A DNA stretch of 44,014 nt, from contig JAUSCZ010000039.1 of the NCBI GenBank assembly GCA_030674475.1, forward strand, positions 1 to 44,014. Reading direction: 5' to 3'. Made by a program: the position numbers and the translations under genes. The notes under the pieces are model-generated. The model was not told the origin of the DNA. It worked only from the letters and a program-made list of their open reading frames with translations, and searched no databases. This DNA is from Candidatus Omnitrophota bacterium. Lineage in GTDB: Bacteria > Omnitrophota > Gorgyraeia > Gygaellales > UBA12090. Below are positions 19,202-41,465 of the stretch, in pieces (position 1 is the first letter of the stretch; every line of letters starts with the position of its first letter).

Positions 19202-20158
19202 ATGGAAGAAAAAAATATAAAAATCGCGGTTATTACCGAAGATCAAGGCATCCAGGAGTATATGTCTTTGATTTTAGTTGGTGAAAACTACGATGTCAAA
19301 ACTTATTTCACCCAGGAAGAAGCTTTAGCCGGTTTAGGCAGTTACCTCCCGGATTTAGTCATTTCGGATTTTCAGTCCCCCCATATCAACGGCATAGATA
19401 TCTGCAAGGCCCTAAGAAGAAACTATATGTTTGCCCATATTCCTCTTATATTCATTCTTGAAGAAACCGGACCGCTGACAATAGGAAAAGTGATTTATTC
19501 GGGAGCGGATGATTATATCCAAAAATCAACCATAGAGGAGGAATTTCTGCTGAGAGTAAAGCTAAGCCTGCACCGGACAATGCGCCAGCAGGATGTAAAT
19601 CCCATAACCCGTCTTCCCGGACAGGCGGGCTTACTTAAGGAGCTGCAAAAAAGAATAGACGCCAAAAGCGTAACCGCGGTTTGCTCTGTGGACCTGCTTA
19701 ATTTCAAGGATTTTAACCGCCGCTACGGCTTTAAAAGAGGCGACCGGGTGATTGAATTTACTGCCGGCCTGATTACCCGGGCAATGAGTGAGCTGGGAAG
19801 CCCGACGGATTTCTTAGCCCATCCCCAGGGAGACGATTTTATCTTTATCACCTTTCCCGAGGGAGCGGAAATAATCGCTAATAAAATAATTAAAGATTTT
19901 GATACCGATATTCCTTCTTTTTACGATGAGGAAGACAGGATCAGGGGCCACATCTTAGCGAAAAGCCGCAAAGGCGAAATCTTAAAGATTCCCCTTCTAA
20001 GGGTGCATATCGGTATTGTTACTAATGAGTATTACCAGTTTATCAATCCCGCCCAGGTAATCCAAATTGCCGTCGAGCTAAACGATTTCGCCCAGAAAAA
20101 TTTCGGCAAGAGTATGTTTGTAAAGGAAAGAAGAAAAGAATATCCCTTTCTTAGCTAA
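19202..20158 (+). CDS. Response regulator with degenerate GGDEF-like output domain
   Basis: REC-like N-terminus (LPDLVISDFQSPHINGIDICKAL). GGDEF fold with signature degenerated to QGDDF. Confidence 0.82.
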   Translation: MEEKNIKIAVITEDQGIQEYMSLILVGENYDVKTYFTQEEALAGLGSYLPDLVISDFQSPHINGIDICKALRRNYMFAHIPLIFILEETGPLTIGKVIYSGADDYIQKSTIEEEFLLRVKLSLHRTMRQQDVNPITRLPGQAGLLKELQKRIDAKSVTAVCSVDLLNFKDFNRRYGFKRGDRVIEFTAGLITRAMSELGSPTDFLAHPQGDDFIFITFPEGAEIIANKIIKDFDTDIPSFYDEEDRIRGHILAKSRKGEILKIPLLRVHIGIVTNEYYQFINPAQVIQIAVELNDFAQKNFGKSMFVKERRKEYPFLS

Positions 20159-22337: not shown

Positions 22338-22709
22338 TTATTTCTTAGGACAGGCTCCGGTAATGCCGTCTAGGCCCACGCTAAGTACCCCGGTTGCGGC
22401 AGTGTAATGAGCATTCCAATTCCCGGAACTTGAAGTGGGAGCTGCAGGCCAAGATTGCAGATAGCCGCCTAAAACAGCTGCACTGACGGTACCAGGCCAA
22501 GGAGTAAGGTCGGCGGGGACATTAATCACCTGACTGGCGTAAAAGTTAGATATAGCCGCTCTTAGTGCTCCGCCGCTTTGCTGGCAGGCTGCTTGTCTGG
22601 CGCTAGCCCTTAAATCCATAAACCTAGGAATTGCGATCGCGGCCAAGATACCGATGATAACGATAACCATAACCAACTCAATCATTGTAAAGCCTTTTTC
22701 TTTATTCAT
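22338..22709 (-). CDS. Type IV pilin / pseudopilin-like protein (start at MNKEKGFTMIEL)
   Basis: Prepilin cleavage/methylation motif KGFTMIELVMVIVIIGILAAIAIPRFMDL; C-terminal Cys pair AAC...GACPKK. Confidence 0.96.
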   Translation of the reverse strand: MNKEKGFTMIELVMVIVIIGILAAIAIPRFMDLRASARQAACQQSGGALRAAISNFYASQVINVPADLTPWPGTVSAAVLGGYLQSWPAAPTSSSGNWNAHYTAATGVLSVGLDGITGACPKK

Positions 22710-22795
22710 TTGCCACCTCCGTATTTTTATTAATAACATATACTTAGAATATTGTCAACATTTTTTTAACTTAAATGCCGCTAATTTTTTTCAAA

Positions 22796-22857
22796 TAAAA
22801 AAACCCTTCTTCCATCCGCAAGTAATTCTTCAATAGTTTATTTGGATGAAGAATGGG
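22796..22857 (-). terminator. Intrinsic terminator / riboswitch expression platform
   Basis: Minus strand: CCCATTCTTCATCC...GGATGGAAGAAGGG followed by TTTTTTTATTT, between aptamer and pilin start. Confidence 0.85.
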
Positions 22858-22872
22858 TAATTTTTTCTACTG

Positions 22873-22964
22873 GCAACTGGCTGCCTGATTATCGTTGGTG
22901 AACCTAACCAGGCCCTGTTAGCTTTGCGTCCCATCCTTGCGGAATGGTTTGCTCTTTTCAGCAA
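22873..22964 (-). promoter_or_regulatory. GEMM-I riboswitch aptamer (c-di-GMP-I fold), putative GEMM-Ib/cGAMP subtype
   Basis: Minus strand: TTGCTGAAAAGAGCAAACCATTCCGCAAGGATGGGACGCAAAGCTAACAGGGCCTGGTTAGG...CAGGCAGCCAGTTGCC. Diagnostic GCAAACC, GNRA-capped stem, GGGACGCAAAGC and AGC...GUUGCC elements. Confidence 0.92.
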
Positions 22965-23121
22965 TTTGAATAACTTTTCTCTATTAAAATGGCGCCGGCT
23001 AAACTCCAGCGCCATATACCCACTTTACCACTCATACTTCCTTCCACTACTAATCTCTAATTAAAATATACCATATAAATCAGGAGTTGTCAAGGCATTA
23101 CCAGCATATTAAGGAAAGGTC

Positions 23122-30441: not shown

Positions 30442-30516
30442 GGCGACGTAGCCAAGTGGTAAGGCAGTGGTCTGCAAAACCTCTATTCAGCGGTTCGAGT
30501 CCGCTCGTCGCCTCCA
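30442..30516 (+). tRNA. tRNA-Cys (anticodon GCA), CCA encoded
   Basis: Cloverleaf ggcgacg...ctGCAaa...ggttcgagtcc...cgtcgcctcca. Confidence 0.95.
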
Positions 30517-30599
30517 CTAAATTTTTCGATAAGAAAAATTTAGTGGATACTCAAGCGAACGTCGCGCAGCGACAAGCTGCGCAGTGAGCGGAGTATCTA
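30517..30599. repeat. Two adjacent inverted repeats between tRNA genes
   Basis: CACTAAATTTTTCgataaGAAAAATTTAGTGg, then GATACTC-...-GAGTATC enclosing gtcgcgcagcgac and gctgcgc. Confidence 0.8.
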
Positions 30600-30626
30600 A
30601 GGGCTTTGCAATTTTGGCAATATGCC

Positions 30627-30709
30627 GGGCAAGTGGTGGAATGGCATACACGACAGACTTAAAATCTGTTGGCTGCAAGGTCGTGAGGGTTCGACTCCCT
30701 CCTTGCCCA
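30627..30709 (+). tRNA. tRNA-Leu (anticodon UAA), CCA not encoded
   Basis: gggcaag...acTTAaaa...long variable arm...cttgccca. Confidence 0.93.
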
Positions 30710-30731
30710 TTTTAAAAAACAATGTTATCGC

Positions 30732-30805
30732 GGGCTCATAGCTCAGCTGGTTAGAGCGTTTCCTTGACATGGAAAAGGTCAGGGGTTCGAATCCTCTTGG
30801 GCCCA
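30732..30805 (+). tRNA. tRNA-Val (anticodon GAC), CCA not encoded
   Basis: gggctcatagctcagctggttagagcg...ttGACat...ggttcgaatcc...tgggccca. Confidence 0.94.
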
Positions 30806-41287: not shown

Positions 41288-41465
41288 AGAAAAGGAAAGT
41301 TATTTTACTTCCCTGCCGTGCGCGTCAGGACTTGGAAAATAGTTGAACCAACATTATTGTAATGGGAGCTGAAACTCCCTTGACAGTTCGCTGTTAAGGG
41401 GAGGCACCCACCTGTGAATCAGGGTTCAAGTAATCAGTTCGACGGCAATGCGCGGGGATTTTTTT
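41288..41465 (+). ncRNA. ssrS: 6S RNA candidate (ends approximate)
   Basis: Closing stem TCCCTGC...GCGGGGA, internal TTGAACC...GGTTCAAG pairing, rod-like structure, cggcaatgcgcggggaTTTTTTT 3' terminator. Confidence 0.78.

Follow-up and report, generated by a model that had tools for sequence, protein, structure and literature searches.

A natural G20-to-A c-di-GMP-I riboswitch variant upstream of a type IV pilin gene in Candidatus Omnitrophota

The closest described systems to the element reported here are the c-di-GMP-I (GEMM-I) riboswitches, such as Vc2 and Cd1, and the GEMM-Ib riboswitches of Geobacter, which sense 3′,3′-cGAMP. In Geobacter, pilus genes such as pilM are among the targets of cGAMP riboswitches (PMC9262584), and the ligand choice of Gmet_0970 depends on position 20 alone: an A20G exchange switches the response from cGAMP to c-di-GMP (PMC6456294). 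The G20A mutant of Vc2 binds cGAMP (PMC6274999, PMC7288161), and the solved Geobacter cGAMP aptamer carries U at the position-19 equivalent (PMC7288161). However, in the C. difficile riboswitch Cd1 a G-to-A exchange at the position-20 equivalent has no large effect (PMC9262584). As the Gmet_0970 and Cd1 results conflict, the base at position 20 cannot settle the ligand choice. An A at this position tends to be taken as a sign of cGAMP signalling, but the base alone should not count as proof. In the literature searched we found no paper containing both 'Omnitrophota' and 'riboswitch', and the present analysis offers an initial map of type IV pilus control by GEMM-I in this phylum.

We analyzed a contig of 44 014 nt (JAUSCZ010000039.1, in the following the window) from an uncultured bacterium assigned to Candidatus Omnitrophota; its YidC is 95% identical to the YidC of UBA12090 and of GWA2_41_15 Hainich H52, both from the same phylum. 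A first-pass annotation had proposed a GEMM-I aptamer in this stretch and asked for a covariance check. The Rfam model of the c-di-GMP-I class (RF01051, gathering cut-off 35 bits) indeed matches the minus strand at 22963–22869 over its full length (model positions 1–87) with 51.1 bits and an E value of 3.2e-7. The Rfam alignment, combined with a coordinate script, also confirms an A at the equivalent of Vc2 G20, at position 22953 of the minus strand (model position 11). The C pairing with a ligand guanine (Vc2 C92, Geobacter C75) is conserved as had been claimed, but it lies at 22873 on the minus strand, as the first C of GUUGCC, and not at 22880, a position within P3. Along with C92, the other ligand-contact bases of the class, A47/A48 in CAAAGC, are present; a G at position 20, in place of the A seen here, is typical of most RF01051 members although the model does not require it. 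At the equivalents of U13 and C15, which contact the ligand in the solved Geobacter cGAMP aptamer, the window has G and G. We rate the element as a naturally occurring A20 variant within the c-di-GMP-I class, whose function is ordinary and whose base at this position is unusual. Elsewhere the window contains a 6S RNA (58.4 bits, 41307–41462) and a cluster of three tRNAs (30442–30805).

The aptamer is followed on the minus strand by an intrinsic terminator (22858–22797) with arms at 22858–22844 and 22817–22804 and seven T at 22803–22797. Its folding energy is −14.9 kcal/mol (z = −2.15 versus shuffled sequences) and it is retained in related genomes; it was missing from a consensus terminator scan because that scan permits loops of 3–8 only. 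The start codon at 22709, with GGAGG in front of it, opens a type IV pilin-like gene of 123 aa (22709–22338, minus strand), whose product carries PF07963 (N_methyl) and TIGR02532 above cut-off and the prepilin motif GFTMIE. The next gene on the same strand encodes a membrane protein with matches to TPR families (22274–20229), and the synteny of the pilin and TPR genes is retained in genome G007. Convergent with these two genes, positions 19202–20158 encode a protein with a receiver and a degenerate GGDEF domain (PQGDDF motif). At locus L026 there is a paralog bearing GGDDF, a motif for which one active enzyme is known (PMC8835794).

Two sigma-70-like promoter sites precede the pilin gene on the minus strand. 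The distal site, TTGACA-17-TATATT at 23093–23065, matches the consensus at 11 of 12 positions and would start the riboswitch transcript; its −10 region and the leader after it are retained in UBA12090 and the entire site in GWA2_41_15 H52. The proximal site, TTGACA-17-TATTAA at 22758–22730, lies between terminator and pilin. The same layout, TTGACA-17-TA just upstream of the ribosome site, is found before the orthologous, riboswitch-bearing pilins of G001, G002, G003, G006 and G007 and also in G018, where a pilin is present and no riboswitch was found in the stretch read. Judged from this arrangement, the pilin gene is probably transcribed from two promoters, of which the riboswitch would affect only the distal one. 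The order of terminator and pilin gene stands as first annotated. The accompanying proposal of pilin control by transcription attenuation is plausible, but as the conserved proximal promoter lies 3′ of the terminator, such control would reach only part of the pilin transcripts.

With respect to the switching mechanism, we found that a strand at 22822–22812 (minus strand, CUUGCGGAUGG) is complementary to the 5′ strand and loop of aptamer P2 (CCAUUCCGCAAG). The predicted duplex has an energy of −17.9 kcal/mol, compared with −7.6 kcal/mol (sd 2.0) for shuffled sequences, none of 500 being as good. Folding of growing transcripts, with energies computed without ligand, Mg and tertiary contacts, favors the ligand-free best fold over the aptamer fold by 8 kcal/mol at transcript ends 22812–22808. 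In this ligand-free fold P2 comes apart: CUUGCGGAUGG pairs with its 5′ strand and loop, and the 5′ arm of the terminator with its 3′ strand; once the terminator is complete, the best fold consists of aptamer and terminator (−46.5). Transcription would begin at the distal promoter, and the opened P2 would block the terminator as long as no ligand is bound. Ligand would lock P1 and P2, so that the terminator forms and the distal transcript stops before the pilin gene, while the proximal promoter would supply pilin mRNA that is not seen by the riboswitch. Since locking of P1 and P2 favors termination, the folding model predicts an OFF switch with a P2 strand forming the antiterminator. A local hairpin, ATTCTTCA/TGAAGAAT (−6.3 kcal/mol), was considered as antiterminator and rejected, the P2-strand pairing being much stronger. 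An ON mechanism as in pilM, where the terminator takes up C75, was not retained: the terminator in the window shows no pairing with the C92 region, and the minimum-energy fold contains both this terminator and P1. The P2-strand antiterminator is kept in G001 and is confined to the genus of the window (g1); it was not found in the G20 orthologs of the pilin locus. GEMM-I RNAs of Omnitrophota are in general enriched for P2 regions complementary to sequence further downstream, with 24 of 111 at the 5% level when kinship is ignored.

The orthologous pilin loci within the same family allow the exchange at position 20 to be placed. In genus g1 the host genome (G000), G001 and G002 carry A20, the aptamer of G002 being damaged, and the three sister genera represented by G003, G006 and G007 carry G20 within the same CTGAAAAG.GC segment. 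As this segment is otherwise identical, the simplest history is a single G-to-A change in genus g1, and from this comparison A20 is not a fixed trait of the pilin locus. A second locus varies as well: the aptamer of a pilus operon on contig C1 has A20 in G000, whereas its counterpart in the congeneric genome G001 has G20 and a different J1/2 segment. The aptamers of the window and of UBA12090 are intact and differ only in the P3 loop region and the flanks. For the G20 ortholog of the pilin locus in G007 the best Rfam match is RF03167. Inside the damaged congener aptamer (L079 4973–4889, the same locus as L203 of G002) lies an 84-nt element with inverted ends (CCGCCTGCC...GGCGGGCAGG), and the core of this aptamer is mutated as well (GAGCATACC). 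The G20 aptamers of G003 and G006 (L207, ∼1177–1290; L208, 2164–2050 of the minus strand) contain a hairpin-like insert of ∼57 nt in the P2 internal loop, in the context GGGACG[GGTGA..CC..]GCAAAGC. Its 5′ end is conserved between the two genera and its middle differs; exact matches to the pattern were found nowhere else among 128 genomes. The insert may represent a variant aptamer architecture.

We were further interested in the cyclic dinucleotides that the host could produce. Its genome (2.19 Mb, 92% complete) contains seven GEMM-I aptamers, of which, by alignment, three have A20 (the window aptamer, C1:168550 and C4:10112) and four G20. Downstream of the C1 aptamer lies a pilus operon with genes for a pilin, minor pilins, PilM, PilO and a secretin, and downstream of the C4 aptamer a Y1-transposase-like gene, so that type IV pilins lie downstream of two of the three A20 aptamers; one G20 aptamer (L021) is likewise located upstream of a pilin operon. 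For three of the G20 aptamers the best Rfam match is c-di-GMP-I-GGC (RF03167). The genome encodes 14 PilZ domains and eight GGDEF-family domains. Four of the latter are degenerate, among them that of the window's own GGDEF-like protein; the other four are intact, and each has Asp where PleD has D344. The annotation had called for a search for Hypr-type GGDEF enzymes, and none (Ser/Thr at the D344 position with an intact GG(D/E)EF) was found among the eight domains; a cGAMP synthase of the SMODS CD-NTase type was not found in the 92% complete genome either. The recognised signalling machinery of the genome is c-di-GMP only. The host is indeed outside the Desulfobacterota, the case in which a cGAMP sensor had been said to be notable; the cGAMP reading itself loses ground as the likely one, given the Asp residues in all intact GGDEF domains, the missing SMODS gene and the G20 of the sister genera.

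A20 aptamers are spread more widely in the phylum. Scanning 285 Omnitrophota genomes with patterns of fixed core sequence, which capture only part of all aptamers, we obtained A20 matches in 23 genomes (about 8%; 29 sites in many families) and G20 matches in 154. In an unselected set of 90 Omnitrophota aptamers about 10 carry A at position 20 and the remainder G; C or T was never observed there among recognisable aptamers. The two groups also differ at position 19. T occurs there in 13 of 30 A20 aptamers versus 0 of 82 G20 aptamers and A in 5 of 30 versus 69 of 82 (kinship ignored in both comparisons), a pattern more suggestive of a coherent subclass than of drift; the window aptamer has G at this position. 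A homolog of the downstream gene is found behind a G20 aptamer for 13 of the 30 A20 aptamers. A20 and G20 aptamers hence serve overlapping gene sets, which is easiest understood if both read c-di-GMP. A special link between A20 and pilins was dropped, as a prepilin motif lies within 1 kb of 6 of 30 A20 and 9 of 82 G20 aptamers. At locus L168 an A20 and a G20 aptamer are ∼0.8 kb apart on one contig, and the gene downstream of the latter is homologous to the one downstream of the A20 aptamer at L184.

Hypr domains were searched in the same 285 genomes as GGDEF whose selectivity residue is Ser, Thr, Arg or Cys. The pattern has fixed codon positions and could overlook unusual domains; with Asp at that residue it retrieved each of the four intact GGDEFs of the host genome. 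Five genomes matched, and in two of these the match was a true GGDEF domain with Ser. These candidate cGAMP synthases (L200 in G149 and L201 in G118) have intact GGDEF/GGEEF motifs, and their genomes gave no match to the A20 pattern. The 23 A20-bearing genomes yielded no match to the Hypr pattern, a SMODS gene in two genomes and 100 matches to the Asp-type GGDEF, at least two in each genome. A20 aptamers thus occur in ∼8% of the genomes sampled from a phylum in which hardly any cGAMP synthase is known: either the base at position 20 predicts the ligand poorly outside Geobacter, or an unrecognised cGAMP synthase exists.

The survey also revealed recurrent features of other GEMM-I loci. The G20 aptamers L007, L060, L073 and L125 have an unusual J1/2 (AACGGGG, GACGGGG or GCCGGGG replacing GATAAAGG). 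Y1-transposase-like genes of the RAYT type (MPRLPRIYL...) stand behind GEMM-I aptamers in several genera (L020, L100, L130, L139, L150 and L158), so transposase-like proteins are apparently under cyclic-dinucleotide control. Genes starting like family 1 beta-glucosidases (FPEGFLWGAATSAHQVEG) follow GEMM-I aptamers at L109, L118, L143, L153 and L162. A large-protein family (∼770–810 aa where complete) with FKSSFKAWIRVVAFIV near its start recurs at L063, L097, L114, L120, L123, L128, L135, L136, L141 and L148.

Taken together, the window contains a genuine GEMM-I aptamer with a natural G20-to-A exchange, and we consider it probable, with some reserve, that the riboswitch responds to c-di-GMP and acts as an OFF attenuator on the distal promoter, next to a proximal promoter that is blind to it. 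c-di-GMP is most likely still sensed in the cell, and the selectivity is perhaps relaxed such that 3′,3′-cGAMP is bound as well in the test tube. Several points weigh against this explanation: the difference between A20 and G20 aptamers at position 19, the confinement of the P2-strand antiterminator to genus g1, folding energies computed without ligand, Mg and tertiary contacts, and a genome that is 92% complete. The position-20 effect in Gmet_0970 counts against it as well, as A20 may cost the window aptamer affinity for c-di-GMP. The same effect (PMC6456294), the combination of A20 with a retained C92 and the Geobacter cGAMP riboswitches on pilus genes such as pilM (PMC9262584) would fit a GEMM-Ib riboswitch that senses 3′,3′-cGAMP in the cell and controls the pilin as in Geobacter, with a synthase that is absent from the assembly or of an unrecognised kind; the T or G that accompanies A20 at position 19 in Omnitrophota, where the Geobacter aptamer has U (PMC7288161), points the same way. 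We regard this as possible if unlikely in view of a host genome without Hypr GGDEF and SMODS, the 0 of 23 and 2 of 23 A20 genomes with these synthases, G20 at the same pilin in sister genera and at the pilus operon within one genus, and G instead of U and C at the U13 and C15 equivalents. It seems rather unlikely to us that Omnitrophota have their own cGAMP pathway, in which the synthase belongs to neither the Hypr GGDEF nor the SMODS CD-NTase type and a phylum-wide A20 subclass of GEMM-I (often T19-A20) reads the signal and governs pili and adhesins.

Two other explanations do without a cellular cGAMP signal. A promiscuous A20 aptamer might serve as a c-di-GMP sensor of lower affinity beside the G20 aptamers and give pilus genes a switching point at another level of c-di-GMP. 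The mixture of A20 and G20 aptamers over the surface genes of the genome, the two type IV pilins behind its three A20 aptamers and the binding of cGAMP by the Vc2 mutant (PMC6274999, PMC7288161) agree with such a division; however, the G20 aptamer L021 of the same genome also precedes a pilin operon, and we judge the division unlikely. It is very improbable that the aptamer is out of use, with A20 as an early lesion and the pilin driven from the proximal promoter. Such decay is seen in the congener, where insert and core mutation have broken the aptamer (L079, L203), and the proximal promoter layout is retained in all orthologs, even without a riboswitch. In contrast, changes in the window and UBA12090 aptamers are limited to the P3 loop region and flanks, the two further A20 aptamers of the genome are intact, and position 20 varies among aptamers only between A and G, never C or T.

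Compared with known systems, the window element shares with the c-di-GMP-I riboswitches Vc2 and Cd1 the aptamer architecture, the ligand-contact bases including C92, the transcription terminator and the association with a pilus or adhesin gene. As in the OFF switch Cd1 (PMC9262584), aptamer and terminator can coexist and an antiterminator would compete. Unlike both, the window has A instead of G at position 20, and its predicted antiterminator uses a P2 strand and loop and not the 3′ strand of P1. With the GEMM-Ib riboswitches of Geobacter (Gs1761/pgcA, Gmet pilM) it has in common the A at position 20 and a downstream type IV pilus gene. It differs from them in its Omnitrophota host without recognised cGAMP synthases, in G19 and G21 in place of Geobacter U13 and C15 and in the G20 found at the same locus in sister genera; moreover, in the ON switch Gmet pilM the terminator takes up C75 (PMC9262584), whereas the window switch is predicted to be OFF. 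A third relative is c-di-GMP-I-GGC (RF03167), the family that best fits three G20 aptamers of the host and the G20 ortholog of the pilin locus in G007; the window aptamer, in contrast, is called by RF01051 and has A at the first ligand-contact base.
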